A stretch of 64,000 nt of DNA from NCBI RefSeq assembly GCF_022808325.1, contig NZ_JALGCL010000002.1, positions 62,001 through 126,000 on the forward strand. The letters are read 5' to 3'. Position 1 is the stretch's first letter. Each line of letters opens with the position of its first letter. Positions 2,022 through 18,990 of this stretch are shown here, one piece after another. The position numbers were made by a program, and so were the translations under genes. Below the pieces are notes generated by a model that made no database searches, was not told the DNA's origin, and was given only the letters and a program-made list of their open reading frames with translations. Origin of the DNA: Cognatiluteimonas sedimenti (GTDB taxonomy: Bacteria; Pseudomonadota; Gammaproteobacteria; Xanthomonadales; Xanthomonadaceae).

Positions 2022-3746
2022 TCAATCCTTCGTCACGCGATTGATCTCGGCGAGGCTGGTGACGCCATTCTTCACCTTCATCAATGCCGACTGGCGCAGG
2101 TCGCGGACGCCGGATTGCAGCGCCGCTTCGGTCAGCTGCTGCACGTTGCCGCCGGCCAGCACGATCGCCTGGATCTCGTCGGTCATCGGCATCACCTGGT
2201 ACAAGCCGGTGCGGCCCTTGTAGCCCTCGGTGCAGTCCGGGCAGCCGACCGCCTCGTAGATGGTCAGGCCGGCGTGGACCTCGTCCGGGGTGAAGCCTTC
2301 CGCCAACAGTGCGTGCTCGGGCAACTCCTGCACGCGCTTGCAGTCGTGCAGGCGCCGTGCCAGGCGCTGCGCGATCACCAGCGTCACCGACGAGGTGATG
2401 TTGAACGGCGCCACGCCCATGTTCATCAGGCGCGAGATGGTCTGCGGCGCGTCATTGGTATGCAGGGTGGACAGCACCATGTGGCCGGTCTGCGCGGCCT
2501 TGATAGCGATCTCGGCGGTTTCCAGGTCGCGGATTTCGCCGACCATCACCACGTCCGGGTCCTGGCGCAGGAAGCTGCGCAGCGCCGCGGCGAAGGTCAT
2601 GCCGCGCTTGACGTTCATCTGCACCTGGTTGATGCCCGGTACGCGGATTTCGACCGGGTCCTCGACCGTGGAGATGTTGCGGGTGTCGTCGTTGAGGATG
2701 TTGAGCGCGGTGTACAGCGAAACGGTCTTGCCCGAGCCGGTCGGGCCGGTAACCAGCACCATGCCGTAGGGCTTCTGCACCGCGTCGAGGAAGAGCTTCT
2801 TCTGGTCTTCCTCGTAGCCCAGCTTGTCGATGCCCAGCTTGGCGGCGCCGCCGTCGAGGATGCGCAGCACGATCTTCTCGCCGAACAGGGTCGGCAGGGT
2901 GCTGACGCGGAAGTCGATCTGCTTGGTCTTGCTCAGGTTGAGCTTGATGCGGCCGTCCTGCGGCACGCGCTTCTCGGCGATGTCCAGCTGCGCCATCACC
3001 TTCAGGCGCGCGGCGATGCGCGGCGCCAGCTTGACCGGCACCTTGGCCACCTGCTTGAGCAGGCCATCGATGCGCAGGCGCACCCGGTACTTGTCCTCGT
3101 ACGGCTCGAAGTGCACGTCCGAAGCGCCGCGGCGGATACCGTCGAGCAATATCTTGTTGATGAACTTGACCACCGGGGTGTCGTCGCCCTTGGCGTCGAC
3201 GCCGCTTTCGGCGGCAAAGTCGTCCTCGCCCCCGCTGACCTCGAGGTCCTCGAGACCCTCGCTGTCGCCGACCGCGTCGGCCAGGGCATCGGCCGTCTCC
3301 AGCCACTGGTCGATGGTGCGTTTGATCCGGTCCTCGTCGACCAGGATCGCCTCGACGGTCAGGTTGGTGTGGAACTTGAGTTCGTCGAGTGCGCGGGTGT
3401 TGGTCGGGTCGGCCAGGCCGACGTACAGGCGACCGCCGCGCTTGAACAGCGGCAGCGCGTTATGTTTGCGCACCAGTTCCTCGCTGACCAGCTTGATCGC
3501 CGACTGCGCGGGATCCATCGACGAAACGTCGAACAGCGGCATGCCGAACTCGATCGAGTTGGCCGCGGCCAGGTCGGCCGGCGCGATCAGCTTGGTCTCC
3601 AGCAGGTAGTCGGCGACCCGGCGCTTATCCCGGGTGGCCGCCTCCAGCGCCGCACGCGCGTCCGCGTCGCCCAGGACCCCGTCCAGCACCAGGCGCCGGG
3701 CAATGCCGGTGATTCCCGCCAGGTTCGCAGTTGCGGCATCGGCCAT
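2022..3746 (-). CDS. pilB: Type IV pilus assembly ATPase PilB
   Basis: This hexameric cytoplasmic ATPase powers pilus extension. At 574 residues it is family length. An N-terminal MshEN/GspE-type domain (about 1-150) is followed by an acidic linker (160-190). The ATPase core has ASDVHFEP (208-215), Walker A GPTGSGKT (334-341), the Asp-box region after it and Walker B VMVGEIRD (400-407). A cysteine pair CPDC and an upstream Cys mark the zinc site typical of extension ATPases rather than PilT. The ATG at 3746 has GGAGGG upstream. Normally pilB lies directly beside pilA; here about 14.8 kb of glycan genes intervene. Confidence 0.97.
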   Translation of the reverse strand: MADAATANLAGITGIARRLVLDGVLGDADARAALEAATRDKRRVADYLLETKLIAPADLAAANSIEFGMPLFDVSSMDPAQSAIKLVSEELVRKHNALPLFKRGGRLYVGLADPTNTRALDELKFHTNLTVEAILVDEDRIKRTIDQWLETADALADAVGDSEGLEDLEVSGGEDDFAAESGVDAKGDDTPVVKFINKILLDGIRRGASDVHFEPYEDKYRVRLRIDGLLKQVAKVPVKLAPRIAARLKVMAQLDIAEKRVPQDGRIKLNLSKTKQIDFRVSTLPTLFGEKIVLRILDGGAAKLGIDKLGYEEDQKKLFLDAVQKPYGMVLVTGPTGSGKTVSLYTALNILNDDTRNISTVEDPVEIRVPGINQVQMNVKRGMTFAAALRSFLRQDPDVVMVGEIRDLETAEIAIKAAQTGHMVLSTLHTNDAPQTISRLMNMGVAPFNITSSVTLVIAQRLARRLHDCKRVQELPEHALLAEGFTPDEVHAGLTIYEAVGCPDCTEGYKGRTGLYQVMPMTDEIQAIVLAGGNVQQLTEAALQSGVRDLRQSALMKVKNGVTSLAEINRVTKD

Positions 3747-4003
3747 GACAGGCCCTCCAGAGTCCCCACCCCGACTTTACCCCAATCGCGCCCCAGCGCG
3801 AACGCTGCGCCAGCCCCGTCCCCGGCGTGCGACGGCCATCACAACGCGCCGTGCCCGGAAGTCCGCCGTGCGCCCTGCGTGCCGCGACAAGCGCGGGCCG
3901 GGCTCTACGCCACGGACGGGAAGTCGAAGAACTCCAGGCCACGACGCCGCGCACCGCCCCCAACTCCTCCTTTCAAGCTACCCTTCACGACAAGGGGCCC
4001 CGC
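3747..4003. other. Divergent intergenic region, pilB / glycan operon
   Basis: These 257 bases separate the minus-strand pilBCD operon from the plus-strand glycan operon, so both promoters should lie here. AAGGGG before 4004 is a clear ribosome binding site for the first glycan gene. I could not identify convincing -35/-10 pairs for either direction and see no gene. Confidence 0.5.
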
Positions 4004-4858
4004 ATGCAACTCACCGTCATCCTCCCGGCCAAGAACGAAGCCGAAGGCCTGCGCCAGACGCTGCCGGCCCTGCGTGCCTGCCTGCCGGATGCCGAGATCA
4101 TCGTCGTCGACGACGGCTCCGCCGACGACACCGCCGCCGTCGCCGCCCGGCACGGCGCCACCGTCATCAGTTCGCCGTATCCGATGGGCAACGGCGCCGC
4201 CATCAAGCGTGGCACCCGCGCCGCCCGCGGCGGGATCCTCGTGTTCATGGACGCCGACGGCCAGCACGACCCGGCCCTGATCCCGCAACTGCTGGCCAGG
4301 CTCGACCAAGGCTTCGACATGGTCGTCGGCGCCCGCAACGGCCAGGGCCAGGCCAACGTCGGCCGTGGTGCCGCCAATGCCTTCTACAACAGGCTCGCCA
4401 GCTGGATGACCGGGCACCGGGTCGCCGACCTGACGTCCGGTTTCCGCGCGGTGCGCGCGGACCGGTTTCGCGAGTTCCTGCACCTGCTGCCCAACGGCTT
4501 CAGCTACCCCACCACCAGCACCATGGCGTTTTTCCGCAGCGCCTACCCGGTGGCGTACGTGTCGATCCCGGTGGCGAAACGGATCGGCACCGGCAGCCAT
4601 ATACGCCCGCTCAAGGACGGCATCCGCTTCCTGCTGATCATCTTCAAGATCGCGACCCTGTACTCACCGCTCAAGCTGTTTGCGCCCACGGCGTTCCTGT
4701 TCTTCATGACCGGGCTCTGCTACTACGTGTGGACGTTCGCCACCGAGCATCGCCTGACCAACATGAGCATGTTGCTGTTCAGTGCCTCGGTGATCATTTT
4801 CCTGATCGGGCTGGTTTCGGAGCAGATCACGGCGCTGATCTACAAGCGCGCGGAATGA
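4004..4858 (+). CDS. Family 2 glycosyltransferase with C-terminal membrane helices
   Basis: This is a GT-A fold inverting glycosyltransferase of 284 residues. The N-terminus MQLTVILPAKNEAEG, the nucleotide-binding VVDDGSADDT and the DxD-type MDADGQHD are all visible. Two hydrophobic helices near the C-terminus (about 225-245 and 255-275) resemble DPM1/GtrB-like enzymes that charge polyprenyl phosphate. The ATG at 4004 was chosen because AAGGGG lies 7-12 bases upstream and the protein then starts exactly at the conserved beta strand; an upstream in-frame extension lacks support. The stop overlaps the next gene (ATGA). Likely role: starting or extending a lipid-linked glycan. The sugar is not predictable from sequence. 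Confidence 0.9.
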   Translation: MQLTVILPAKNEAEGLRQTLPALRACLPDAEIIVVDDGSADDTAAVAARHGATVISSPYPMGNGAAIKRGTRAARGGILVFMDADGQHDPALIPQLLARLDQGFDMVVGARNGQGQANVGRGAANAFYNRLASWMTGHRVADLTSGFRAVRADRFREFLHLLPNGFSYPTTSTMAFFRSAYPVAYVSIPVAKRIGTGSHIRPLKDGIRFLLIIFKIATLYSPLKLFAPTAFLFFMTGLCYYVWTFATEHRLTNMSMLLFSASVIIFLIGLVSEQITALIYKRAE

Positions 4859-6039
4859 GGGCGATGAAGACCATACGATCCCGCGCGGACCTGGCGATAA
4901 ACGGCGCCCCCCCTGCCTTCGCCGAACCGCTGCACGTGGGGCGCCCCAACATCGGCGATCGTCAGGCATTCCTGCGCAACGTCGAAAACGTCCTCGACAA
5001 CCAGTGGCTGACCAACAACGGCCCGCTGGTGCGCGAGTTCGAGCGGCGCATCGCGCAATACCTGGGCGTGAAGCACTGCGTGGCGATGTGCAACGGCACC
5101 ATCGCCCTGGAAATCGCCATCCGCGCGCTGGGGCTGCAAGGCGAGGTGATCGTGCCGTCGTGGACCTTCGTCGCGACCGCGCACGCGCTCTACTGGCAGG
5201 GCATCACCCCGGTCTTCGCGGACATCGACCCGGCCACGCACAACCTCGATCCCGGTGCGGTGCGCCGCATGATCACGCCGCGCACCACCGGCATCATCGG
5301 CGTCCACCTCTGGGGCCGGGCGGCGCCCGTCGACGAACTGCAGTCGATCGCGGACGAGCACGGACTCAAGCTCATGTTCGACGCGGCGCATGCCTTCGGC
5401 AGCACGCACAAAGGCGAGAGCATCGGTCGTTTCGGCGCCTGCGAAGTCCTGAGTTTCCACGCCACCAAGGCGTTCAACACCATGGAGGGCGGCGCGGTCG
5501 TCACCGACGACGACGAACTCGCCGAGGCCATGCGCCTGATGCGCAACTTCGGCTTCATTGGCTACGACAACGTCATCCATCCCGGCACCAACGGCAAGAT
5601 GATCGAGGTGTGCGCCGCGATGGGCCTGGCCAACCTCGGCGGGTTCGACGGCATCGTCGCGACGAACCGGCGCAACCACGCCGCGTACAACCAGGCCTTC
5701 GCGGGTGTCCCCGGCGTCGCGGTACTGGATTACGACGCGTCCGAACGCAACAGCCACCATTACGTCGTGGTCGAGGTCGGAGGGGGTTGCCCGTCCTCGC
5801 GCGACGAAATCCTCGCCGCGCTGCACGCGGAGAACATCCTCGCCCGCAAGTATTTCTGGCCCGGCAGCCACGGCATGAAACCGTACCGCGACCTGTTCCC
5901 GCATGCGGGGCTGCTGCTTCCGAATACGCGCGCGGTGGCGGAGCGGGTGCTCGTGTTGCCGAACGGCCAGTCGCTGCCTGACGGCGCTATCGAAACGGTC
6001 GCTGGCCTTTTCAAGGCCCTTAGCGGTGCTGTCCCCTGA
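4855..6039 (+). CDS. DegT/DnrJ/EryC1/StrS-family sugar aminotransferase
   Basis: This PLP enzyme of the family that aminates nucleotide-bound keto-sugars has 394 residues. K205 in FHATKAFNTMEGG is the expected Schiff-base lysine, D176 in LMFDAAHAFG the pyridine-nitrogen partner, and NGTIALEIA the cofactor phosphate loop. The ATG at 4855 overlaps the TGA of the preceding glycosyltransferase by four bases; ATG 4864 is an alternative. The stop overlaps the next start (TGATG). No sugar dehydratase or reductase that would make its keto-sugar is present nearby, so the substrate must come from elsewhere, or the enzyme acts on an unusual one. Family assignment is firm; substrate unknown. Confidence 0.92.
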   Translation: MRAMKTIRSRADLAINGAPPAFAEPLHVGRPNIGDRQAFLRNVENVLDNQWLTNNGPLVREFERRIAQYLGVKHCVAMCNGTIALEIAIRALGLQGEVIVPSWTFVATAHALYWQGITPVFADIDPATHNLDPGAVRRMITPRTTGIIGVHLWGRAAPVDELQSIADEHGLKLMFDAAHAFGSTHKGESIGRFGACEVLSFHATKAFNTMEGGAVVTDDDELAEAMRLMRNFGFIGYDNVIHPGTNGKMIEVCAAMGLANLGGFDGIVATNRRNHAAYNQAFAGVPGVAVLDYDASERNSHHYVVVEVGGGCPSSRDEILAALHAENILARKYFWPGSHGMKPYRDLFPHAGLLLPNTRAVAERVLVLPNGQSLPDGAIETVAGLFKALSGAVP

Positions 6040-7310
6040 TGCGGCTGGTAGATGCCAAGGCAGCGGTGCTGCCAAGCCACCAGGAACTCACGGCCGCCGC
6101 CGCCTTGCATGGTGACGGGTTCTGGTTGCTATCTACCGATCGGGTTCGCGGGAATATCCGCGCATTTCGAGAAGCCTTTCTGAGGGCGGGACTGCCCGAG
6201 GTCGAAATCGGCTGGTCCGTCAAGACGCAATGGCTGCCTGCTGCCATGGCGGCAGCGTTTTCCGAGGGCGCCGCGGCCGAGGTCGTCTCGGCCCACGAAA
6301 TGGAGTTGGCGCTACAAGCGGGAGCTGCCACGGCGTCGCTCATCTTCAACGGCGTCGGCAAGTCGGTCGCTGACGTGGAGCGGGCGCTTGCCTTGGGGGC
6401 GCGCGTGCATCTTGACGGCGAAGATGAAGTTCAGGACCTCATTGGGCTGGCAACTGATCATCCGAGCCACCAGTACAGGGTGGGGTTACGCGTAAATTTC
6501 GAACTGGGGCTGGGAGACCGCGGACGGTTCGGGCTGGATGCCGAATCGGGGCAATTCCAAGCTTGCTACCTTAAGCTGAGCAGCTTGCCGAACGTCGCCG
6601 TATGCGGAATACATCTCCATGTTTCCGGGGCGCGGCGTGCGAAGCAATTCAGCCAGCGCATGGCCAGGTTAGCCGGGCTGGCGAACGAGGTCCGGGCTTT
6701 TGGCGGCGAGTTGGAATACATGGACATTGGCGGTGGCTTTTGCGGATCAATGCCGGTTGAGCTCGCCGCACAGATGCCATTCGCGCCCCCATCATTCGAC
6801 GAATACGCAACGGCTATCGCAGGCGAGTTTTTGTCGCACTGGCCAATGTCCGGGCCGCGCCTGATCCTGGAGCCGGGCGTGGCCCTCGCTGCGGATACAA
6901 CCTGGTTTGCCGCGAAGGTCTTGGCAATTAAAACCATCGGCAGCCAACGTCACGCGATTACATCAGCCAGTGTTTACACGGTTAAGCCGATGCAGCACGC
7001 GATGGACATGCCGTTCATCCACGTGCCGTCAAACCCAAGCGCAGTCCAGCAAGGCGATTCAAGCAACGCAACGGTCGTCAGTGGCTACACATGCATGGAG
7101 TCCGACATCCTGCATCGGCGATGCACAGCTCCGTTGCAGCGCGGGGACTGGCTTCTGTTCCCCAACTGCGGTGCCTACACACACGTGCTGACCCCGCGTT
7201 TCATCAGGGCCACACCGGCCACCCTCTTGTTGAACGGCTCCGTGTTGCGTCCATGCATGCGAGCAGAGCGTGTTGGAGACTGGCTTGGCTTGCAGGTCCT
7301 AAGTAGATGA
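6039..7310 (+). CDS. PLP-dependent decarboxylase, LysA/ornithine-decarboxylase fold
   Basis: This is a 423-residue fold-type III PLP enzyme of the diaminopimelate/ornithine decarboxylase family. K62 in GWSVKTQW is the expected PLP lysine; DIGGGFCG is the phosphate-binding glycine loop; LEPGVALAAD corresponds to the EPGR motif; CMESD and NCGAYTH match the C-terminal active-site signatures. It is too divergent to be an ordinary LysA. The setting beside an ATP-grasp ligase resembles natural-product clusters where a carrier- or amide-linked amino acid is decarboxylated (BtrK of butirosin is a known precedent), but that comparison is inference. Its first base overlaps the preceding stop, and its stop overlaps the ATP-grasp start. 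Base composition appears less GC-rich than that of the pilus genes. Confidence 0.82.
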   Translation: MRLVDAKAAVLPSHQELTAAAALHGDGFWLLSTDRVRGNIRAFREAFLRAGLPEVEIGWSVKTQWLPAAMAAAFSEGAAAEVVSAHEMELALQAGAATASLIFNGVGKSVADVERALALGARVHLDGEDEVQDLIGLATDHPSHQYRVGLRVNFELGLGDRGRFGLDAESGQFQACYLKLSSLPNVAVCGIHLHVSGARRAKQFSQRMARLAGLANEVRAFGGELEYMDIGGGFCGSMPVELAAQMPFAPPSFDEYATAIAGEFLSHWPMSGPRLILEPGVALAADTTWFAAKVLAIKTIGSQRHAITSASVYTVKPMQHAMDMPFIHVPSNPSAVQQGDSSNATVVSGYTCMESDILHRRCTAPLQRGDWLLFPNCGAYTHVLTPRFIRATPATLLLNGSVLRPCMRAERVGDWLGLQVLSR

Positions 7311-8308
7311 ACCTACTTTTCTCCTGCATCGGCCGGCGTGGGTACATGGCCGATTATTTTCGCCCGCACCTACTTCCTGGGGAGCGAATCATAGGCACCA
7401 GTCACTCCGCATGGACGGTAGGCCTGGCTGCGTGCGACGAGGCAGTCATCCTTCCACCCATAGAATCTGGCGAATACCTCGAAACGGTTCTTGATTTATG
7501 CGGCCGCCGTGAAATCAATGCGGTACTTTCCTTCTACGATCCGGATGTCGCGTTTCTCTCATCCCATCGTGACAGCCTGGCGAACGCCGGGTGCATGCCG
7601 CTGCTGGCCACGCCGCGTACGGTAGCGATCGCATACGACAAGTCGGCGATGCATGATCGGTTGCGAGCCATGGGCTATCTTGTGCCGTACACCGTCGCAA
7701 CGATCGAAGAAGCCGAAGCGTCGATCTCCGAAGGGTTGTTGCGATTCCCATTGGTGGTCAAGCCGCGTCGCGGGTTCGGCAGCCTGAACACGTTCGTCGC
7801 AAACACCGTGGAGCAGATGCGGGTGTTTCATGGTTACGCGGCCGACATGCTGGTGCAAGAGTTCATTGTCGGGGAGGAGCTTAACTCAAGCATCTTCTCC
7901 GACATGGACGCTCGCGTGCTATCCGTTGTGCCATGTAGGAAGCGCCTGATGGCAGGTGGGGAAACGCAGCACGCGGAGAGCATCGAGCACCCGGGTCTCC
8001 TGGCACTAAGCCATCGATTGGCAGAGGATATTGGCTCGGTTGGGCCGTTGGACGTCGACTTCATGGAGTCGCGCGATGGTCGCTTGTACGTGTTGGATCT
8101 GAATCCTCGCTTTGGCGGGGCCTATCCCGTTGCGCAAGTTGCCGGCGCCGATTTTCCTTCCCTGGCGATGGCAATCATCAGGGGAAATGCTGTGGCGCCG
8201 ACGGTCGGGGCGTATCGGCGCGGCGTCTACATGATGAAGGCCATCGCGATTGCCGGCGGGCCGCTGACCAGCCTGGACGACAGGTCCTACGATGACCGAC
8301 GATATTAG
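7307..8308 (+). CDS. ATP-grasp ligase, carbamoyl-phosphate-synthase-like
   Basis: This is a 333-residue ATP-grasp protein. ATP-grasp enzymes join a carboxylate to an amine or thiol through an acyl phosphate. The N-terminal 100 residues look like the pre-ATP-grasp Rossmann domain. K152 in FPLVVKPRRGFGS and the VQEFIVGEE segment bind ATP, and DLNPRFGG (264-271) carries the metal-binding Asp/Asn typical of CarB-like members. The start overlaps the decarboxylase stop by four bases, and its last 17 bases overlap the sulfotransferase start, so expression should be coupled. I infer that it ligates an amino acid or similar group onto a glycan precursor or small molecule; no carrier-protein gene is visible. 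Confidence 0.85.
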   Translation: MNLLFSCIGRRGYMADYFRPHLLPGERIIGTSHSAWTVGLAACDEAVILPPIESGEYLETVLDLCGRREINAVLSFYDPDVAFLSSHRDSLANAGCMPLLATPRTVAIAYDKSAMHDRLRAMGYLVPYTVATIEEAEASISEGLLRFPLVVKPRRGFGSLNTFVANTVEQMRVFHGYAADMLVQEFIVGEELNSSIFSDMDARVLSVVPCRKRLMAGGETQHAESIEHPGLLALSHRLAEDIGSVGPLDVDFMESRDGRLYVLDLNPRFGGAYPVAQVAGADFPSLAMAIIRGNAVAPTVGAYRRGVYMMKAIAIAGGPLTSLDDRSYDDRRY

Positions 8309-9290
8309 GCGAGACAACGGGTTCGCCCGTAACGAGTCCCTTGAGGCCTTGCTGGTTGAGTTGAACGCCATGCTCTCCAGGGCGGAGCAGGGGTTGGCGT
8401 TGCCGTCGCAACCCACCTTGCCGGTGCTCCTCGTGGTCGGGCCGCCGCGCAGTGGGACCACCCTGGTAATGCAGTGGCTGGCTGCTACGGGGAGTTTTTC
8501 CTGGCCAACCAACCTGCTGTCGCGCTTTTACGCTGCTCCATATGTCGGTGCGCGCATTCAACAACTGCTCACCGATCCGCAATTCAACTATAGGAATGAA
8601 CTGATTGCGGATGCTTCGCCATCCGGTTTTGAGTCGGACCTCGGAAAGACTCGCGGCTTGTTGCAGCCTAATGAATTCTGGTATTTCTGGCGGCGCTTTT
8701 TTCCGCTTCAGTGGCCAGAACCACTGTCCCAGGAGCAGCAGGTGAGTGCCGACGGGGCCGGGTTCGTCGCGGGACTTGCTGCCATTGAATGCGCTCTCGG
8801 AAAGCCATTTGCCGCAAAGGCGCTGCTCCTGCAATACAACCTGACGCTGCTTTCGGCCCTGCTGCCCAAGGCCATTTTCCTGCATGTTCGGCGCAACCCT
8901 GTGGAAAACGCAGCGAGCTTGCTGCGCGCGCGAGAGCGCTTCTGGGGCGATTCCGAACAATGGTATTCGGCGCGACCTCCGGGTTCGGAGTCGCTTCTCA
9001 TCCGCAACAAGTACGAGCAAGTCGCTGGCCAGGTCGCCTATACGCATTCCTCCATAGAGCGCGAACTCTCCTTGTTGCCGAATGAGCGACATTTGCGAAT
9101 TGATCTGGAGGAATTCCGTAGCTCCACGCATCCGACCTGGCGCGCCATAGTCGAGCGATGCGAGCTCCTTGGTCATCGGTTGCCGAGCAGTCACGCTGCG
9201 CCTCGAGGCTTTGCAAGGCAGGACTCCGTGATTTCGGATGACACCGCCAGCGCGCTAACTTCGGCATTCGATCGCGTCGCGATGCCTTGA
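8292..9290 (+). CDS. Sulfotransferase family protein
   Basis: This 332-residue protein has the PAPS-binding loop GPPRSGTTLV (50-59) and the 3'-phosphate segment IFLHVRRNPVENAASLL, both diagnostic of sulfotransferases. These transfer sulfate from PAPS to a hydroxyl or amine on a carbohydrate, peptide or small molecule. It overlaps the ATP-grasp gene by 17 bases and precedes a flippase gene by 25 bases, so a glycan or glycan-linked substituent is the likely acceptor. Codon use is visibly less GC-biased than in surrounding pilus genes, as in the two genes before it. The PAPS-synthesis genes are not in the window. Confidence 0.88.
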   Translation: MTDDIRRDNGFARNESLEALLVELNAMLSRAEQGLALPSQPTLPVLLVVGPPRSGTTLVMQWLAATGSFSWPTNLLSRFYAAPYVGARIQQLLTDPQFNYRNELIADASPSGFESDLGKTRGLLQPNEFWYFWRRFFPLQWPEPLSQEQQVSADGAGFVAGLAAIECALGKPFAAKALLLQYNLTLLSALLPKAIFLHVRRNPVENAASLLRARERFWGDSEQWYSARPPGSESLLIRNKYEQVAGQVAYTHSSIERELSLLPNERHLRIDLEEFRSSTHPTWRAIVERCELLGHRLPSSHAAPRGFARQDSVISDDTASALTSAFDRVAMP

Positions 9291-9315
9291 TGGTCGCCGT
9301 CACAGCACTGGCCTT

Positions 9316-10803
9316 ATGACGTCCTCTGGCAGCCTCACCCATCGCGCCGCGAACGCCACCTGGTGGAGCGCGCTGGAGATCGCGGCGCGCTATGGCGTGC
9401 AGCTCGGGGTGATGATCGTGCTGGCGCGGCTACTCTCGCCATCCGACTTCGGCCTGGTCGCGATGCTGTTGGTGTTCACTTCGGTCGCCGTGCTGCTGGT
9501 CGATGCCGGCTTCGGCACCGCGCTGGTGCAGCAGCAGCGCACCAGCGACGACGACGAGAGCACGGTGTTCCTGACCGGCATCGGCGCCAGCGTCGTGGCC
9601 TGCTGCATCCTGTGGCTTGCGGCGCCTTCCATCGCGGCCTTCTATTCGCAACCCGTGCTGGTGCCGCTGGTCCGGCTGCTGCTGTTCGTGCTGCCGCTCA
9701 GCGCGCTGGCTGCGGTTCCCGATGCGCTGCTGACGCAGCGGCTGGACTTCCGCGCGCGGGCGAACGCGGAAGTCTTCGCCTCGCTCGCCTCGGGCGCGGT
9801 CGCGGTGCTGCTGGCCTGGCGCGGCTTCGGCGTATGGAGCCTGGCCTGGCAGTCGATCGTGGCGATCGGCGTGCGCGCCGCGCTGCTGTGGCTGTATTCC
9901 GGCTGGCGCCTGCGCGGGCGATTCCGGCTCGCATCGTTCCGGAGGTTGTTCGCATTCGGCAGCTACATGCTGTTGGCCAACCTGCTGAACACCCTCTCGA
10001 TCCGCCTGCAGTCATTGCTGATCGGGCGCATGTTCGATTCGCGCGCGCTCGGCTATTACACCCTGGCACAGAACACCCAGCAGGCGCCGGCGCAGTTCAT
10101 GAGTGGGGTATTGAACCGCGTTGGCCTGCCGGTGTTCTCGACGATCGCCGACCAGCCGGCCAAGCTGGTCGGCGCCTTGCGCCTGTCGCTGCGGGTGGCG
10201 ATCTTCGCGTTCGTGCCGTGCATGGTCGGCATCGCGGTGATAGCCAAGCCGCTGGTCGTGATGTTGTACGGTCCGCGCTGGGCGCCGGCGGCGCCGATCC
10301 TGGGCCTCCTCTCCGCCAGCGCCGCGTTCTGGCCGCTGCACGTGCTGAACATGGCCGCCATCGGGGCGCAGGGGCGCTCGGACCTGGTCTTCCGGCTCGA
10401 GCTGGTCAAGCGCATCGCATCGATCGGCCTGATCGTCGCAGCCAGCCCCCGGGGCCCGGTCGCGATCGCCTGGGCGGTCCTGGTCGCGAGCCTGTTCGCA
10501 GTCGCGGTCAATACCTGGTATTCGAAGAAGCTGCTGGGTTACGGCGCGCTGGCGCAACTGCGCGACCAGGCCGGCACGTTGCTGCTCTCGGCGCTGGCCG
10601 CGTCGGCCGGCTGGCTCGTGCTGCGATGGCTTCCCCCGGGCACCGGCGCAATGGTCGCCGCGATCGCGGCAGCGGTCATCGTGTACCTCACGGGTGCGGT
10701 GCTGGGCCGGCACCCGGCGCTCGCCGACCTGCGGGAGCTGTGGCGCGCATTGCGCACGGGCGCCGCGCCCCGACCCGCCGCCGGCGACGAGGGCAGGGCA
10801 TGA
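9316..10803 (+). CDS. Polysaccharide flippase, PST/Wzx type
   Basis: This is a 495-residue polytopic membrane protein of the polysaccharide-transport (WzxC-like) branch of the MOP exporters, which flip lipid-linked glycans across the inner membrane. The N-terminus with ALEIAARYGVQLGVMIVLARLLSP and then DFGLVAM is characteristic. Around 12-14 hydrophobic helices are spread over the length, and a basic tail follows. It returns to the high GC of the chromosome. Its TGA overlaps the next ATG (ATGA). In context it would export the glycan assembled by the GT2/aminotransferase/sulfotransferase module to the periplasm. Confidence 0.92.
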   Translation: MTSSGSLTHRAANATWWSALEIAARYGVQLGVMIVLARLLSPSDFGLVAMLLVFTSVAVLLVDAGFGTALVQQQRTSDDDESTVFLTGIGASVVACCILWLAAPSIAAFYSQPVLVPLVRLLLFVLPLSALAAVPDALLTQRLDFRARANAEVFASLASGAVAVLLAWRGFGVWSLAWQSIVAIGVRAALLWLYSGWRLRGRFRLASFRRLFAFGSYMLLANLLNTLSIRLQSLLIGRMFDSRALGYYTLAQNTQQAPAQFMSGVLNRVGLPVFSTIADQPAKLVGALRLSLRVAIFAFVPCMVGIAVIAKPLVVMLYGPRWAPAAPILGLLSASAAFWPLHVLNMAAIGAQGRSDLVFRLELVKRIASIGLIVAASPRGPVAIAWAVLVASLFAVAVNTWYSKKLLGYGALAQLRDQAGTLLLSALAASAGWLVLRWLPPGTGAMVAAIAAAVIVYLTGAVLGRHPALADLRELWRALRTGAAPRPAAGDEGRA

Positions 10804-11756
10804 GTCCGCCGCGCGTCACCGTATGCGTGGCGACCTGCAACCAGCGCGGTTTCATCGCGCAATGCCTGCGCAGCGTCGTCGAACAGCACGCCGATGCGGA
10901 CCTGCGGTTGCTGGTCGGCGACGACGCATCCGATGATGGCACCAGCCAGATCGTCGCGGCGCTCGCGGACGAATACCCCGGGACGATCCTGCCGTTGCGG
11001 CGCCCGCGGCGAGTGGGTGCCTTCGCCAACATGCGCGACCTCATCGCCTGCGCCGACGGCGATTTCGTCGCGCGGATGGACGGCGATGATTACTGGCTCC
11101 CGGGGAAACTGCAGCGGCAGCTGGACTACCTGCAGGCGCACGCCGACTGCGCCGCGGTTTACACCAACGCGATCACCGTGGACGCGGCCGGCAACAGGAT
11201 CGGGCTGTTCAACGACGTGGGCGATGCGCGGTTCGACCTGGCTGCCATGCTTCGCCGCGGGAACTTCCTCAACAACAGTTCCGTGCTGTTCCGGGCGTCG
11301 GGTCGGCGGGCCTGGCTGGATGTCGAGGTCCCGCAGATCGACTACCGCGCGCATCTGTGGCATGCGCGGCACGGCCATCTCGCGCACCTGGGCGAGCCGC
11401 TGGCGGCTTACCGGGTTGCGACGCGCGGGTCGATGGTCGCGGAAATGAACGACCGGGTCCGCGCGTTGTACTGGGAGGCCATCCAGAGCGTGCCGCGCGG
11501 CGCCGTCGCCGACGCGGACCTGGCCGCCGGGATGGCGGATTTCATGCGCAAGACCGCATTCCATGCATTGCGGTCGGGCAATGCCTCCCTCGTGCACGAA
11601 TGGCTGCCGCGGGTGATGGCCGCGTCCCCCGTGGCCCGCTGGCGTTTGCTCGCCCTGCTTGCGTCATCGGTCGCGCGTGGCGCCGCGGGGGAGGCCTGGG
11701 GGCGGCTGGCGGACGCGGCCCGTGGCGGCGGGCATGCCGTCCTTTACCGGAGGTGA
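10800..11756 (+). CDS. Family 2 glycosyltransferase
   Basis: This is a 318-residue GT-A glycosyltransferase. TVCVATCNQRGF opens the fold, DDASDDGT is the nucleotide-binding site and ARMDGDDYWL holds the metal-binding aspartates. The C-terminal third has no clear domain. The ATG at 10800 overlaps the flippase stop by four bases and gives an N-terminus exactly at the conserved first strand; longer in-frame readings run antisense-like through the flippase and were rejected. It is probably a cytoplasmic enzyme adding a residue to the glycan; donor and linkage are unknown. Confidence 0.9.
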   Translation: MSPPRVTVCVATCNQRGFIAQCLRSVVEQHADADLRLLVGDDASDDGTSQIVAALADEYPGTILPLRRPRRVGAFANMRDLIACADGDFVARMDGDDYWLPGKLQRQLDYLQAHADCAAVYTNAITVDAAGNRIGLFNDVGDARFDLAAMLRRGNFLNNSSVLFRASGRRAWLDVEVPQIDYRAHLWHARHGHLAHLGEPLAAYRVATRGSMVAEMNDRVRALYWEAIQSVPRGAVADADLAAGMADFMRKTAFHALRSGNASLVHEWLPRVMAASPVARWRLLALLASSVARGAAGEAWGRLADAARGGGHAVLYRR

Positions 11757-11761
11757 CGCGG

Positions 11762-12535
11762 ATGCGGTTCCACGACCCGATCAAGCTGCTGCGTTACGCC
11801 CTGGCTGGCTGGCTGCCGGGCGGCAGGCGCCGATGCGTGATGTGCGGGCATTGCGTCTGGCGGTTCATGCCCTACCGGAGTGGCCTGCGGGTCGCGTTGA
11901 TGGACGCGCTCGATATGGTCGGCAGCGATACCCGCAACCATGCATGCCCGCGCTGCGGGGCGCACGACCGCGAACGACACCTGCTCATGTACATGCAGGC
12001 CTCCGGCCTCTGGGATGGACTTCGCGGGCTGCGGGTCCTGCACTTCGCCCCCGAACGCCACCTGTCGCCCCGGATTGCCGCGGCGGGCCCGGAAGCCTAC
12101 GTCCGTTGCGACCTGCACCCGCGCTCGGACGACGTCCGCCAGGCCGACATCCAGGAGATGCCATTCGATGCCGGCAGCTTCGACCTCGTCATCGCCAATC
12201 ATGTGCTGGAGCACGTCGGCGACGACCGGCGCGCCCTTGCGGAGATCCACCGGGTACTGAAGCCGGGCGGCGCCGCGATCCTGCAGACACCTTACAGCGC
12301 CGCCCTGCACCATACCTGGAGCGATCCGGGGATCGCGAGCGAGCAGGCGCGGTTGCAGGCCTACGGCCAGGAAGACCACGCCAGGCTCTTCGGCCGCGAC
12401 ATTTTCGATCGCTTCGCCGCCAGCGGCCTGCGCGCATGCATTGCCACCCACGACGAACTGCTTCCCGGTTGCGATGCGCGGGAACACGGCGTCAACCGGC
12501 GCGAGCCCTTCTTCCTGTACCGCCGCGCCGGTTGA
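11762..12535 (+). CDS. SAM-dependent methyltransferase with N-terminal zinc ribbon
   Basis: This is a 257-residue class I methyltransferase. Two cysteine pairs, C25/C28 and C62/C65, suggest a zinc ribbon in front of the catalytic domain. The SAM site is RVLHFAPERHLSP followed by the acidic DLHP, then FDLVIANHVLEHV and HRVLKPGG, the typical motif series. It lies five bases after the previous stop and is the last gene of the plus-strand glycan operon. The opposing operon ends six bases away. It is likely to methylate a sugar or its substituent; a ubiquinone- or protein-type substrate cannot be excluded. Confidence 0.85.
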   Translation: MRFHDPIKLLRYALAGWLPGGRRRCVMCGHCVWRFMPYRSGLRVALMDALDMVGSDTRNHACPRCGAHDRERHLLMYMQASGLWDGLRGLRVLHFAPERHLSPRIAAAGPEAYVRCDLHPRSDDVRQADIQEMPFDAGSFDLVIANHVLEHVGDDRRALAEIHRVLKPGGAAILQTPYSAALHHTWSDPGIASEQARLQAYGQEDHARLFGRDIFDRFAASGLRACIATHDELLPGCDAREHGVNRREPFFLYRRAG

Positions 12536-12541
12536 GTTCGG

Positions 12542-13567
12542 TCAGTTGCCGATCGCGGGGAAACCGTGGCGCAGCAGCATGGCCAGTTTTTGCGGGATCC
12601 AGCGCGTGAACGCGAACAGCGTGGCCGGCGGGGCCGTTCGCCGTTGCCGCAGGCTTCGTCGCAGCGCCCTGGCCTGCCGCCGCCGCGCCCACAACTGCCG
12701 CGGCAGCGGGGCATAGATCGCCAGCACCGTCGCGGCCCCCGCGCCGGACACCAGCAGGGCGCAGGCTTCGATCGCCAGCAGCAGCGCATGGATCGGCAGG
12801 ATGCAGGCCAGGGCAGGCCACGGATAGCAGCACAGCATCGTCAGCGTCTTGTTGCGTTCGCTCAACGCGCGACGCCGCACCGTGGTCTGCAATCCACCAT
12901 CCACCAGCTTCCCGCCCCCCAGTTGCTTGCCTACCCAGTGGTCGAAGCCGGGGCCATCGAGCACGAAGACGCGATGGCCGAGCAGGCGCGCGGCCAGGCA
13001 CAGGAAGATGTCCTCGGCAACCGACTCGAACCACGGCGGGAATCCGCCCACCTCGTCCCATGTCTGTCTTGGTATCCACAGGCAAGCGCCGGTCGCCACG
13101 CCGACCTCATGGGTTTGCGGGTCGAGCATGGGGATTGGATTCAGGAAAGGATCCGTGCGGTAGCCGCGATCCACCAGCGCTCCATCCGCCATGGCGTACT
13201 GCGGCAGTCCCAGGATGCAGTCCTGGTGGCCCTCCTCGGCGAACCGGAGCAGGCGTTGCAGGCTGCCGGGGCGCAACACCGCATCGTTGTTGAGCAGCAG
13301 CAAGTAGCGGCCGCTGGCTGCCGCGGCCATGCGGTTGTTGCTGATGCAGAAGCCACAATTCGCTTCGCTGGCGATTACCCGTGCGTTCGGGAACCGTGCG
13401 CGTATCCGTTCTGGCGAGCCATCGCTGGACGCGTCATCGTGGACGAGCACTTCGATCCGGAAGCCGCCCTGCTGCGCAAACGCCGAGTCGAGGCACTCAA
13501 GCACGAGTTCGCCGCCGTTGTAGTTGGCGATGCATACGCTGATATCCGGCTGGCTCACGCTGCTCAT
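12542..13567 (-). CDS. Family 2 glycosyltransferase, rhamnosyltransferase-like
   Basis: This 341-residue protein has SVCIANYNGGELVLECL, HDDASSDGS and LLLLNNDAVL, the layout of WbbL-type GT2 enzymes that often move rhamnose or similar deoxysugars onto polyprenyl-linked acceptors. A hydrophobic stretch near 245-290 may anchor it to the membrane. The start overlaps the stop of the upstream GT4 gene by four bases (ATGA), so it is the last cistron of the minus-strand operon that begins after pilA. The sugar is not predictable. Confidence 0.9.
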   Translation of the reverse strand: MSSVSQPDISVCIANYNGGELVLECLDSAFAQQGGFRIEVLVHDDASSDGSPERIRARFPNARVIASEANCGFCISNNRMAAAASGRYLLLLNNDAVLRPGSLQRLLRFAEEGHQDCILGLPQYAMADGALVDRGYRTDPFLNPIPMLDPQTHEVGVATGACLWIPRQTWDEVGGFPPWFESVAEDIFLCLAARLLGHRVFVLDGPGFDHWVGKQLGGGKLVDGGLQTTVRRRALSERNKTLTMLCCYPWPALACILPIHALLLAIEACALLVSGAGAATVLAIYAPLPRQLWARRRQARALRRSLRQRRTAPPATLFAFTRWIPQKLAMLLRHGFPAIGN

Positions 13568-14718
13568 GCCAGGCGCCTCGTCGCATGCCTGGCGGCGAGT
13601 TGGCGCACCAAGGGCAACAGGCGGTCGCCGATTACGCGCCCGGACAGGCGTTGCTCGTACAGCGCCCGCCCGCGCCTGCCGATGGCGGGCAGTTCCGCGC
13701 GATGGTCATGCGCCCATCGGATCGCCTCCGCCAGCGCCGCGGCATTGCCCTGTTCCACCAGTAGGCAATTGTCGCGGTCGATGAATCCGTAGTCCTCGTC
13801 GATCCGCCCGATGACCGTGGCCTTGCCCGACGCCATGCATTGCGATGCCTTGCCGGTGACCACGCGGCGCGCCTGCGGCGTACCGCCGAACGGGCCACCC
13901 AGGCACAAGTCGGCGCCCGGGATTTCGTGCTGCAGCAAGTGCTCTAACGGAACCCAGCGGCGATGCGTGTAGCGCTGGATGCCCCGGGTGTTGCAGGCGG
14001 CGCGGAACTGCCGTGCCTGGGCACGGCTGCCGCCGATGAAATCGAACTCGATCGGCAGGTCGGAAAGGCTTGCAGCCGCATCCAGGATCACGTCCATGCC
14101 ATGCAATGGCAGGAACGAGCCATAGAACAGCACGCGCAAGGGCCCATGCGATGCCGTCGACGGGGGAATCGCCGGATCGCCCGCGCGCTCGATCGCGCCA
14201 ACCGGTATCGCGATGACCTTGTCGACGGGTAGGCGGAACTCATCGCGGTAGTACGCGGCCTGCAGGTGCGTGTCGGCCAGCACCGCGTCGGCCAGGTGCA
14301 GGATCGCGCCCTCGTACCGCCGCCAGCATGGCGCCAGCACCCGGCCCAGGAGCCCCAGCTTCCCCTCTTCCTTCATCGCGGCATAGGGCGACATCAGCGC
14401 GTCCAGGACCAGCTGCCTGTCGCGTGTCAGCCAGCGGACCAGCCACGCGATTTCGTGGCCGCGGAATCCGAGGATGTAGACATCGGGATCGAAATTGCTG
14501 CGCACGTGCAGCAATTGGCGGATCGATTGCCAGTACCGCCTGATGCCCTTGGTGCGATTGACCGCCAGCCACAGGTCGACCGCCCCGGAGCCTGCGAGTG
14601 CCGCGCAGAGCGCGCGCCCGCGGATGTAGTCGGGTGCACGATAGGCCAGAACGAAGCAGACCTTCGGCTTGGCCCCCCCGGGATGGCCTGGTGGCGCACT
14701 CGCGGCACGGGCACTCAA
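13564..14718 (-). CDS. Family 4-like (GT-B) glycosyltransferase
   Basis: This 384-residue protein has a GT-B layout. The N-terminal Rossmann part starts at PKVCFVLAYRAPD. The second domain begins near PLRVLFYGSFLPLHGMDV, the usual GT4 donor-binding entry. GKASQCMASGKATVIG and DNCLLVEQGN replace the canonical E-x7-E region, as in divergent GT4 members. The N-terminal tail is Ala/Gly/Pro-rich. It overlaps the gene before it (14715-14718) and the one after it (13564-13567) by four bases each, indicating tight translational coupling with the GT-C proteins. Confidence 0.87.
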   Translation of the reverse strand: MSARAASAPPGHPGGAKPKVCFVLAYRAPDYIRGRALCAALAGSGAVDLWLAVNRTKGIRRYWQSIRQLLHVRSNFDPDVYILGFRGHEIAWLVRWLTRDRQLVLDALMSPYAAMKEEGKLGLLGRVLAPCWRRYEGAILHLADAVLADTHLQAAYYRDEFRLPVDKVIAIPVGAIERAGDPAIPPSTASHGPLRVLFYGSFLPLHGMDVILDAAASLSDLPIEFDFIGGSRAQARQFRAACNTRGIQRYTHRRWVPLEHLLQHEIPGADLCLGGPFGGTPQARRVVTGKASQCMASGKATVIGRIDEDYGFIDRDNCLLVEQGNAAALAEAIRWAHDHRAELPAIGRRGRALYEQRLSGRVIGDRLLPLVRQLAARHATRRLA

Positions 14719-16574
14719 TTGGGCCGGTCCCGGTAGCGCGCCATCAGCTGGCGGAACCGGCGGGTTTCATCGCCTTCCCGCAGGCGTGGTTCAAGCTGCG
14801 TGGCCAAGGCATCGGCTTTCGCGGATTCGCCCCGGGCCAGGTAGGCCCCGAGCAATTCCAGGGCTGCGTCATTGCGCGCCGCATCCGCCGCCACCGCTTC
14901 CGCGAGCAGGGCTTCGTAGCCGCTTTCATCGCTGAAGTTGCGTTGCAGGCGGGCCTTGGCGAGCAGCGCATCGCCCGCGCCACCGGCCAGCCCGCGTCGC
15001 CCGTATTCCGCTGCCAGGTCATCGAGGAATTCCTCAAGCTGGCCGCGGCCGATGCCGTTGCAGGGATAGGGATTGGTGTTGTCCGCGATCGATACAAGCG
15101 CGCTGGACGACCAGGGATCCTCAGGGTGCAGCAGCGCCACGCGTCGCAATTCGGGCCAGTCCGGCGGCCCGGGCAGGAGCCGGCATGCGACCAGGATGAG
15201 CTTTTGCGATTGGGCGAAGAAGTTGTCCGGGAAGCGCGAAGCGAGCAGGGCGGTCGAGCTTGCCATGCCCTTCTCGTCGCCGTGGCGGAAATGGTACTCG
15301 CCCAGATTGTTCAAGGCGCGGAAAGATTGGGGATGCCGTTGTGCTTCCAGGCGCAGGAAGCGGCCTTCATCCGACCATTCACGGGCACGCTGCAGGGTGC
15401 AGGCCCCCAGCATGGCCGCCACGATGCAGGCGAGCCAGGGGAAGGCACGCGGCCGCGCGGAGCAAACACTCCATGCACACCCCGCCGCCCACAGGGCGAC
15501 GCCGAACAGCGCCAGGTAATTGCGATGTTCGAAGGCCAGTTCCAGGCCGAAAACGGTGGATTCGAGCAGGTGGCATCCAAGGAACCAGAGGATGGCGAAC
15601 GCGGCCAACGGGAAGCGCCTGCGACCGATCCATGCAGTGACTGCCGCGAGCAGCCAGAACCCGGTCGCGGCCAGGGATGCTGCATCGCCGGGCTGGTGCA
15701 AGGGATAGTCCAGGTGCAAGCCCATCTGGCGGATGTCGGGCCATAGCATCGCGCCCAGGTAGTGCAGCAGGATCACCGGCTCCGTGGCCAGGCGCTGCGG
15801 TAGCGTGAAGTCGCGACGCTGGTAGCTCGCGATGACGACATCCCAGTTCACCAGCAACAGCAAGGCATACAGGGCCGCCGGCAGGACTGCGGCCAGCAGC
15901 ACGAACACGCGGCGGCTGCGGCGGGCCTGGGCGCCATCCGGCGCAGGGATGAAGGCCGCCAGCAGCCCGATGAGGACTGGCACCAGTACCGTGATTTCCT
16001 TGGCCAGCAAGCCCAGGACACTGCAGAGGACGACCAGCGCCAGGGTGCGCGCGCTGCGGCGCGGGCCAAAGTCATTCCCGCCCAGGAAACGCGCCGTCAC
16101 CAGCAGGGAAAGCAGCATGCCGGTGGTCGCCAGCAGCGTCATCCGTTGCACCACGTACAGGACACTGCCCACCTGCAACGGATGCAACAGCCAGAGCGCT
16201 GTGGCGAGCAGGGCCACGCCGCGCGCCTGCGTGGGCATTGTGGCGCGGGCCATGGCGGGATAGAGCTGACTGGCAAGCGCGAACACCAGCAGCCCGTTGC
16301 AGCCATGGATCAGCACGTTCACCAGCTTGTAGCCCAGCGGAAACTCGCCGGAGACCATGGCGTTTGCAGCGAAGCTGGCCATTGCCAGCGGCCGGCCGAA
16401 GGGGCCGGACGCATTGCCGGAAATCGCGCGCCACCAGTCGCCGTCCTGCAGTGCGGACAGCACGGGCTGCAGGTTGACGTTGTCGTCAAGCATGAACGGC
16501 CCGGCGATGCCGGGCAGGAACGGCAACAGGCACAGGCCGATGACAAGCCACACGGCGCGCTTACCGGATGGCAT
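14715..16574 (-). CDS. GT-C-like multispanning membrane protein with TPR-like C-terminus (paralog 2)
   Basis: This 619-residue protein belongs to the bacterial group related to TMTC/PMT mannosyltransferases. An N-terminal helix is followed by the acidic pair in FMLDDNVNL (D30, D31), placed like the catalytic carboxylates of GT-C enzymes. Later come GRPLAMASF, LYVVQRM, KEITVL, DFTLPQRLATEP and FEHRNYLALFG, and then a soluble helical C-terminal third. About ten hydrophobic segments are visible. A GTG at 16580, overlapping the previous stop as GTGA, is an alternative start to the ATG at 16574. It is paralogous to the next gene upstream. I infer a periplasmic glycan transferase, possibly acting on pilin. 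Confidence 0.75.
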   Translation of the reverse strand: MPSGKRAVWLVIGLCLLPFLPGIAGPFMLDDNVNLQPVLSALQDGDWWRAISGNASGPFGRPLAMASFAANAMVSGEFPLGYKLVNVLIHGCNGLLVFALASQLYPAMARATMPTQARGVALLATALWLLHPLQVGSVLYVVQRMTLLATTGMLLSLLVTARFLGGNDFGPRRSARTLALVVLCSVLGLLAKEITVLVPVLIGLLAAFIPAPDGAQARRSRRVFVLLAAVLPAALYALLLLVNWDVVIASYQRRDFTLPQRLATEPVILLHYLGAMLWPDIRQMGLHLDYPLHQPGDAASLAATGFWLLAAVTAWIGRRRFPLAAFAILWFLGCHLLESTVFGLELAFEHRNYLALFGVALWAAGCAWSVCSARPRAFPWLACIVAAMLGACTLQRAREWSDEGRFLRLEAQRHPQSFRALNNLGEYHFRHGDEKGMASSTALLASRFPDNFFAQSQKLILVACRLLPGPPDWPELRRVALLHPEDPWSSSALVSIADNTNPYPCNGIGRGQLEEFLDDLAAEYGRRGLAGGAGDALLAKARLQRNFSDESGYEALLAEAVAADAARNDAALELLGAYLARGESAKADALATQLEPRLREGDETRRFRQLMARYRDRPN

Positions 16575-16576
16575 GT

Positions 16577-18493: not shown

Positions 18494-18515
18494 CGGCCTA
18501 GTCTAGTGCGCGGGC

Positions 18516-18543
18516 AAAAAAATACCCCGCCGAAGCGGGGTAT
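18516..18543 (-). terminator. Rho-independent terminator of pilA
   Basis: On the minus strand ATACCCCGC and GCGGGGTAT form a perfect 9-bp stem closed by a TTCG tetraloop, followed directly by a run of T. It lies 27 bases after the pilA stop. It should end most pilA transcripts and let only read-through reach the glycan operon, unless that operon has its own promoter. Confidence 0.92.
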
Positions 18544-18570
18544 CGGGTGTTGCGCAACGGCAGCCCTGGA

Positions 18571-18990
18571 TCAGCGGCAGGTGCCCGGCGCGTACTTGGT
18601 GGTGCCGGTGGCCTTGCACTTCCAGTCGATGTCGCCGCTGGTGGCGTTGACGGTGGGCGAGTCGATGATGGTGACGTTGCCGGTACCGCCGGTCTTGGTG
18701 GACGGAGCTTGAACCGAGATCACGCCGTTGGCGATCGTCAGCTGGTCGCAGTACTTGGTCGCCTGCGTGTCCACGCCGGCGGCAGCGGCATTGGTCGGCA
18801 GCGCGGTGTGCGATGCGCGGTACTCGGCCACGGCGGTCTTGGCGGACGCCATCATGTTGGCGCACTCCGACACCTTGGCGCGGACGGTGTAGTCCTGGTA
18901 CGCCGGCAGCGCAATGGCGATCAGGATGCCGAGGATCGCGATGACGATCATCAGCTCGATCAGGGTGAAGCCTTGCTGGTACTTCTTCAT
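18571..18990 (-). CDS. pilA: Type IV major pilin PilA
   Basis: This is a 139-residue prepilin. The short basic leader MKKYQQG ends at Gly7, and the mature protein begins [16 protein letters not shown], with the essential Glu at position 5 of the mature chain. The C-terminal disulfide loop is probably C124-C138; C43 and C81 could form a second pair. A Ser/Thr/Gly-rich stretch (about 96-118) is a plausible O-glycosylation region. Its neighbours are a pilin accessory gene and pilR-pilS on one side and two GT-C proteins on the other. A good terminator follows. Transcription is probably sigma-54 and PilR dependent (see the promoter entry). Confidence 0.96.

Follow-up and report, generated by a model that had tools for sequence, protein, structure and literature searches.

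Surface glycans are known to be modified by N-acylation of 4-amino sugars, flagellin viosamine islands carry aminotransferases of the DesI/VioA type together with N-acylation genes, and the exosortase-A-associated decarboxylase of model TIGR03099 belongs to an exopolysaccharide setting. FigC, SbnH, AcsE, MccE and BtrK are pyridoxal phosphate (PLP)-dependent decarboxylases of the alanine-racemase fold that act on conjugated amino acids, as described in PMC7857480. The window analysed here, a stretch of 64,000 nucleotides from Cognatiluteimonas sedimenti (contig NZ_JALGCL010000002.1, positions 62,001 to 126,000 of the forward strand), carries four coupled genes for a DesI-like aminotransferase (AT), a PLP decarboxylase of this fold (DC), an ATP-grasp ligase and a sulfotransferase (ST). 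In the reading we favour, at about even confidence and with the whole series of steps set out below, the last three form an acquired cassette that occupies, in a glycan operon linked to pili, the slot for modifying the amino sugar. Compared loci are labelled with L-numbers.

The window DC has in common with FigC/FslC, SbnH, AcsE, MccE and BtrK the fold, the PLP lysine, the stacking histidine, the GGG loop, and a glutamate, cysteine and tyrosine, and its Met353 resembles the methionine beside the catalytic cysteine of FigC (M355; PMC7857480); by this likeness DC would also decarboxylate a conjugated amino acid. It differs from this group in its low score with the FslC model, in its signature, EPG not followed by Arg together with TCxExD, and in lying in glycan loci, with an ATP-grasp ligase as partner and not an NRPS-independent siderophore (NIS) synthetase. 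No NCBIfam model matching DC reaches its cut-off (lysA, 140.4 of 297.9 bits; FslC, 87.6 of 500; TIGR03099, an enzyme of the same fold, 69.2 of 478), and the nearest PDB chain is 7kh2, a rhizoferrin enzyme. BtrJ and BtrK of butirosin biosynthesis follow a similar logic, in which a ligase (BtrJ, presumably of the ATP-grasp class) and an alpha-decarboxylase give an omega-aminoacyl (4-aminobutyryl) group on an amino sugar; in contrast to butirosin, the eight window operon genes include no carrier protein by Pfam, and BtrK is a weak match (2j66, E 5.9e-8). The vioA locus of a Burkholderia glumae plasmid (L147) is like the window in having acylation genes behind an aminotransferase, with a gene for a surface protein alongside, but has a ketoacyl-acyl carrier protein synthase, an acyl carrier protein and an acetyltransferase instead of ATP-grasp and DC.

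Layout and composition of the operon

The four genes, all on the plus strand, were confirmed at their coordinates, and each junction overlaps. AT (4855 to 6039, start ATG 4855 or 4864; Pfam DegT, 365.7 bits) shares one base with DC (TGATG at 6039), DC (6039 to 7310; Orn_Arg_deC_N and a C-terminal sheet domain) shares four bases with the PylC/2pn1-like ATP-grasp gene (ATGA, 7307 to 7310), and the latter (7307 to 8308; PylC-like_N and ATP-grasp_3) shares 17 bases (8292 to 8308) with ST (8292 to 9290; Sulfotransfer_3). An earlier reading of the DNA letters alone (the sequence-only reading) had called these overlaps translational coupling, had named the four enzyme classes, and had placed the genes next to pilus genes, all of which stands. 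Upstream, a family 2 glycosyltransferase (4004 to 4858, plus strand; Glycos_transf_2, 98 bits; ATG picked at 4004 in a frame open from 3827) shares ATGA with AT under the start at 4855, and has no overlap with it under the ATG at 4864. Downstream, 25 bases separate the end of ST from a Wzx-type flippase (9316 to 10803, plus strand; Polysacc_synt_3, 284 bits; O-glycosylation flippase model NF058658, 272 of 720 bits), which a second family 2 glycosyltransferase (10800 to 11756, plus strand; Glycos_transf_2, 84 bits) overlaps by ATGA (10800 to 10803), followed by a methyltransferase (11762 to 12535, plus strand; Methyltransf_11, 63 bits; ATG at 11762 read from the sequence). Given the overlap with the upstream glycosyltransferase and the close downstream genes, the four genes are the middle of a longer operon of eight genes, from 4004 to 12535.

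Only the last three of the four genes differ in composition, a point beyond the sequence-only reading. The G+C content of third codon positions (GC3) is 0.70, 0.695 and 0.676 for DC, ATP-grasp and ST, respectively, and 0.82–0.94 for the 15 other neighbouring genes measured (0.88 for AT and 0.91 for Wzx). Since ST overlaps ATP-grasp by 17 bases and the three genes have their unlike composition in common, they probably arrived together, and we infer that they are one horizontally acquired cassette. Searches of the family returned no DC match in 394 other genomes at 1e-40 (own only, 1/395), no ST match in 296 other genomes at 1e-20 (own only, 1/297), and two ATP-grasp matches among 296 other genomes at 1e-30, both at 47% identity and from one other genus. 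At class level, ATP-grasp was found in its own genome only (1/205, at 1e-45), and DC in 15 of 369 genomes including its own (at 1e-30), of which G704 and G716 belong to the decarboxylase subfamily defined below and 12 to its outgroup; at phylum level DC was found in 3 of 398 genomes, its own counted (at 1e-45). A plasmid collection held no match to the window DC at 1e-20 or to the DC of L034 at 1e-30, and 11 records matching the DC of L078 at 24.8–29.4% identity. Among viral contigs, one of 39 pattern matches was confirmed, L118, in which a subfamily DC (347 to 1426), very near that of L082 in the tree, lies on an IMG/VR contig of 6455 bases that is either viral or misassigned host DNA.

The same locus was compared within the genus, where a pilB ortholog was found in 7 of 9 genomes, including the window's own, and the regions beside the other six were read. 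The first glycosyltransferase is kept in all six (75–83% identity), and AT in two, L128 (78%) and L130 (69%). In L128, AT and Wzx flank a Gfo/Idh oxidoreductase and an ATP-grasp protein of another subfamily; in L130 they flank WbqC and a Sulfotransfer_3 protein of another subfamily (BLASTP against the window ST, E 0.3), with no DC or ATP-grasp match in the slot. L129 carries a hexapeptide-repeat transferase behind another aminotransferase (40%), and L126, L127 and L131 gave no AT match by tblastn at 1e-8. Because other genes stand between AT and Wzx in related species, the interval behind AT looks like an exchangeable slot for amino-sugar modification; AT looks native to the locus, given its local codon usage and its retention at the same place in two related species. 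In L130, AT and Wzx are themselves GC3-poor (0.60 and 0.64), so the composition break between AT and the cassette is particular to the window.

The best NCBIfam model for AT is TIGR04427 (DesI), matched below its cut-off, and the best PDB match is 2po3 (E=3.2e-119), which we take to be DesI. The host genome encodes RmlB above its model cut-off and an adenosine 5'-phosphosulfate (APS) kinase domain, so that precursors of dTDP-4-amino-4,6-dideoxyglucose (dTDP-Qui4N) and sulfate activation are likely available. The host's lysA product scores 482 bits, above the model cut-off, and a second match reaches 282 bits; lysine would thus be made without need of DC.

Decarboxylase subfamily and partner genes

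Relatives of DC were collected by a GTDB scan with patterns from an alignment of four relatives (two ATP-grasp-type and two aldolase-type sequences; the patterns contain the motifs SxKT and TC[MI]E), yielding 138 pattern matches, of which 103 were confirmed and the best 80 were taken as DC loci. A single-protein GTDB scan with the window DC had 45 pattern matches and no relative among them. The subfamily set (n=85) comprises the 80 GTDB loci, the window, L019, L020, L036 and L118 (L036 and L069 have an identical protein), and the outgroup (n=14) the Gammaproteobacterial L021–L033 and L037, which were set aside as candidate members on finding EPGR in 14/14 and TCxExD in none. The outgroup forms a conserved module of its own (L022–L033, L037), with a PqqD-like protein (by Pfam in L025), ATP-grasp, an EPGR-type DC, a urea transporter/M23 peptidase fusion (by Pfam in L028) and, in several loci, two further conserved proteins.

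Judged by its residues, DC is a member of an unnamed, glycan-associated subfamily of the alanine-racemase fold, defined here. It has the fold residues K62, H194 (stacking), G231–233 (GGG loop), E278, C352 and Y380, and Lys62, His194, Glu278, Cys352, Glu354, Asp356 and Tyr380 are present in 85/85 subfamily sequences. The signature, EPG without a following Arg together with TCxExD, occurs in 85/85 subfamily and 0/14 outgroup sequences; the constancy of TCxE is partly built in, TC[MI]E being one of the two scan patterns, and that of the EPG motif is not. The Arg of EPGR is found in 0/85 subfamily sequences, in 14/14 of the outgroup and in both host LysA-type proteins, and may be replaced at the PLP phosphate by Arg199, present in 81/85. 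Compared with the EPGR, RPSLY (RPxLY) and CE of the host LysA-type proteins, the window DC has EPGV, KPMQH and CM; residues by which diaminopimelate or ornithine is bound are missing from it. The residue after the catalytic cysteine is Met, Ile, Val or Leu in 85/85 and acidic in none, being Met in 58 of the 65 sequences on the ATP-grasp side (Ile, Val or Leu in the rest) and Ile in 18 of the 20 on the aldolase side. Given these active-site residues and the host's own lysA, activity solely on plain diaminopimelate or ornithine appears less likely. At position 316, the ATP-grasp side has Lys in 39/65 and Asp in 20/65, and the amino acid substrate probably varies within the subfamily.

Neighbours were counted as adjacent (≤300 bases, same strand) or near (≤4 kb, either strand), with profiles for ATP-grasp, aminotransferases and sugar transferases that had been iterated on the same loci; contig ends hide some neighbours, and gene calls of GC-rich loci include spurious opposite-strand frames. 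ATP-grasp is adjacent to DC in 52/80 loci and near in 6 more, against a background of 3 ATP-grasp matches in 759 kb of flank beyond 4 kb. Another 18/80 have an IlvE-like (class-IV) aminotransferase and an HpcH-like aldolase with no ATP-grasp within 4 kb, 4/80 lack both partners within 4 kb (in L074 and L105, ATP-grasp matches lie farther off), and no locus has both partner types (Fisher p 2e-14, phylogeny ignored). By best match, 50 of the 58 near ATP-grasp genes are of the window type (L082 and L113 weakly) and 8 of another subfamily (L095 and L111 weakly), of which those of L039 and L044 scarcely match the window's; two ligase lineages paired with one decarboxylase subfamily argue for a common task. 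The ATP-grasp core residues K112, K152 and R268 are present in 60/60 sequences, and a PylC-like N domain and an ATP-grasp domain were found by Pfam. A DegT aminotransferase lies within 4 kb in 19/80 loci (18/52 adjacent pairs, 1/6 near, 0/4 with neither partner, 0/18 aldolase-type), and an initiating sugar-transferase homolog within 300 bases in 36/80 (17/52, 3/6, 0/4 and 16/18, in the same order).

By DC, the locus closest to the window is L038 (a Halochromatium record), in which DC (39%), ATP-grasp (42%) and a DegT aminotransferase (38%) follow one another, with Wzx and WbqC before the pair on the other strand; by ATP-grasp, L048 is nearer than L038. The distance trees of DC and ATP-grasp show a correlation (r 0.45, n 60; highest value in 1000 permutations, 0.157), which was not used as proof since species relatedness alone can give such a correlation. 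The DC/ATP-grasp pair recurs in many phyla, a second point beyond the sequence-only reading, and occurs in records whose titles place them in Proteobacteria, Cyanobacteria, Bacteroidota, Firmicutes, Actinobacteria, Planctomycetota, Verrucomicrobiota and Chloroflexi. To judge by its neighbourhoods, the DC/ATP-grasp core is a two-gene glycan module that recurs, and no assigned function was found for it; a search of the titles and abstract openings of the open-access literature returned no description of the pair in a glycan locus.

In L095 (a Fibrobacter record, 2574 to 11233), Wzx, DegT, ATP-grasp, two proteins without Pfam match (PaaK-like and DegT-like by eye), a weak second ATP-grasp and DC stand in a row, perhaps an enlarged version of the DC/ATP-grasp module. 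The aldolase-type module (L019, L051, L057, L063–L065, L067–L070, L072, L073, L075–L077, L081, L097, L109 and L115) mostly adjoins an initiating sugar transferase; in L019, the IlvE-like protein passes two NCBIfam branched-chain aminotransferase (BCAT) cut-offs and the aldolase matches HpcH_HpaI at 41 bits. This module may build an amino-alcohol or hydroxy-amino acyl group.

Window-type ATP-grasp genes also occur with DesI/VioA-like aminotransferases in loci without DC. L145 belongs to a different genus of the same family and has an island (6000 to 19800), adjoining a sigma-54 regulator, with flagellin, FliD, AT (66%), ATP-grasp (47%) and two methyltransferases; no DC match was found at 1e-4 in 20 kb. 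L148, on an Escherichia coli plasmid, has a dTDP-glucose 4,6-dehydratase, rfbA, a 'lipopolysaccharide biosynthesis protein', DegT (38% identical to the window AT; best model DesI, below cut-off), GNAT, a PLP enzyme annotated as 1-aminocyclopropane-1-carboxylate (ACC) deaminase/D-cysteine desulfhydrase, and ATP-grasp (30%), in a cluster found in 4/5426 E. coli genomes, all on plasmids. L149, on a Sphingobium plasmid, has a sugar transferase, an ACC-deaminase/D-cysteine-desulfhydrase-like enzyme, GNAT, ATP-grasp and a DegT aminotransferase nearer to PseC than to DesI. L148 and L149 are thus like the window in placing the same type of ATP-grasp beside a DegT aminotransferase and an amino-acid PLP enzyme, but another PLP enzyme (TIGR01275, 208 and 192 of 289 bits, below cut-off) and an acetyltransferase replace DC, and no sulfotransferase is annotated in the stretches fetched. 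The second PLP enzyme beside the ligase therefore varies: decarboxylase, desulfhydrase-like, or none. Since the ligase and a DesI/VioA-like aminotransferase occur without DC, the ligase appears to go with the amino sugar and DC to be optional, a pattern that fits amino-sugar ligation as a fixed step and decarboxylation as an optional later one.

Proposed chemistry and competing explanations

In the reading given about even confidence at the outset, the native DesI-like AT would convert the host's dTDP-4-keto-6-deoxyglucose to dTDP-4-amino-4,6-dideoxyglucose, the ATP-grasp ligase would join an amino acid to N4 of the sugar, most simply via the side-chain carboxylate of Asp or Glu, and DC would strip the alpha-carboxylate of the bound amino acid, producing an omega-aminoacyl group (beta-alanyl or 4-aminobutyryl). 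ST would then add sulfate, giving a zwitterionic sugar, and Wzx would flip the glycan, the modified sugar being placed on pilin or another surface glycan. A link through the side chain of Asp or Glu would be simplest because ligation via the alpha-carboxylate would leave nothing for DC, and such a link would parallel the carrier-bound glutamate of BtrK. The general idea of the sequence-only reading, an aminoacyl- or amine-bearing sulfated sugar, is supported as a prediction. Its view of the four genes as one co-occurring module fails, AT being native, the other three unlike it in composition, and ST present in 1/80 DC loci; the proposed genome survey of co-occurrence bore out the pairing of DC with ATP-grasp (near in 58/80) and did not bear out that with DegT (19/80) or a sulfotransferase (1/80, L039).

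Several observations weigh against the proposed chemistry. AT scores 482.5 bits with the DesI model against a cut-off of 650, and no DegT gene lies within 10 kb of 21/52 adjacent pairs (some of the contigs stop short of this distance), so that an amino-sugar acceptor may not be general. The 18 aldolase-type loci without a nearby ATP-grasp indicate that DC does not always depend on an ATP-grasp conjugate, and Asp at the equivalent of Lys316 in 20/65 suggests that substrates probably differ within the subfamily. Met after the cysteine argues against a diaminopimelate or ornithine enzyme, yet is not subfamily-specific or diagnostic, since it is also found in 13/14 outgroup sequences. Finally, ST accompanies DC in just 1/80 loci.

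This last point bears on the strongest alternative, held at just short of even confidence and compatible with the favoured explanation, in which DC and ATP-grasp have one function and ST is an independent hitch-hiker that sulfates another sugar of the same glycan. ST passes the Sulfotransfer_3 gathering score (51.2 against 27 bits) and has by eye a GPPRSGTT stretch, which we take to be a 3'-phosphoadenosine 5'-phosphosulfate (PAPS)-loop motif. Over the DC loci, a profile of the window ST matched itself alone, and a three-seed profile found L039 and the window only. A broad profile, built from 23 Sulfotransfer_3 matches in genomes of DC loci, recovered the window ST at 64.6 bits (not among its seeds) and, in the 85 loci searched, otherwise only L039, which has the order ATP-grasp, DC, ST and two sulfotransferases, 79 and 4978 bases from DC. 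Sulfotransfer_3 occurs somewhere in the genome in 11 of 22 genomes of DC loci. ST was accordingly rejected as part of a conserved set with DC and ATP-grasp, and the L130 slot, with its other-subfamily sulfotransferase and no match to the pair, likewise favours independence. The 17-base overlap with ATP-grasp and the common unlike composition speak for a link.

An unlikely, though still substantial, alternative is that the amine is made first, DC decarboxylating a free amino acid and ATP-grasp then joining the amine or omega-amino acid to a glycan precursor, for example as an amide of a sugar acid, or as beta-alanine or 4-aminobutyrate joined to an amino sugar. DC precedes ATP-grasp in most pairs (ATP-grasp is upstream alone in 7/52), though gene order says little of the sequence of reactions; the 18 aldolase-type loci, where DC has a class-IV aminotransferase but no ATP-grasp within 4 kb, look like free-amine synthesis, and the 21/52 pairs without a DegT gene fit this alternative as well. 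It is opposed by ATP-grasp standing beside DesI/VioA-like aminotransferases without DC in two other settings, by the operon, in which no sugar-acid gene was found by Pfam among the eight genes, and by the conjugated substrates described for FigC, SbnH, AcsE, MccE and BtrK (PMC7857480).

That the genes make a diffusible natural product or siderophore fragment is highly improbable. The set does resemble citryl-amino-acid decarboxylases and aminoglycoside side-chain genes, the solved structure nearest to DC is that of the rhizoferrin enzyme 7kh2, and BtrK acts on carrier-bound glutamate (PMC7857480), but the operon consists of glycosyltransferases, AT, the cassette, a flippase and a methyltransferase, with no NIS synthetase or carrier protein by Pfam, and an initiating sugar-transferase homolog lies within 300 bases in 36/80 DC loci. 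Least probable of all is an ordinary diaminopimelate or ornithine decarboxylase recruited beside unrelated genes, since the general lysA profile, while matching along DC (140 bits), stays far below its cut-off of 297.9, the host has its own lysA and a second match, and both the Arg of EPGR and an acidic residue after the cysteine are absent in 85/85 subfamily sequences.

Pilus neighbourhood and wider meaning

On the minus strand, a pilC-like T2SSF protein (622 to 1872; Pfam T2SSF, 212 bits) and a pilB-like ATPase (2022 to 3746; Pfam T2SSE, 480 bits, and MshEN), whose orthologs anchor the locus in the 6 other genomes of the genus, precede the operon. Beyond it, also on the minus strand, lie a pilin-like protein (18571 to 18990), a candidate glycan acceptor recognised by motif only (GFTLIEL N-terminus), and a TfpX/TfpZ-like pilin accessory protein (19278 to 20057; NF041437, 125 bits, below the cut-off of 200), with an NtrC-type regulator near them (18.5–21.5 kb). 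The pilin-like gene and the regulator are read, by position, as pilA and pilR. The stretch from the glycan genes to the pilin-like gene also encodes two large membrane proteins (14715 to 18493, minus strand) whose tails are TPR-like and which have homologs in related loci of the genus; they gave no NCBIfam match, and their sole Pfam match is TPR in the second. They may be candidate pilin glycosyltransferases.

Tentatively, and with doubt prevailing, the pair may represent an undescribed, phylum-crossing glycan decoration, in which an ATP-grasp ligase would attach an amino acid through its side-chain carboxylate to a nucleotide amino sugar and enzymes of a dedicated subfamily would decarboxylate it there to give omega-aminoacyl sugars, ST here making a zwitterion for the pilus. 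If so, a role in the glycan loci of eight or more phyla would be gained for an unnamed decarboxylase subfamily. The proposal would also predict a mass on pilins; a single sugar would bear both a positive and a negative charge, with possible effects on adhesion and on the binding of phages. Within the one genus compared, the loci suggest that pilus-linked glycans are rewired by swapping cassettes of two or three genes behind a fixed aminotransferase.

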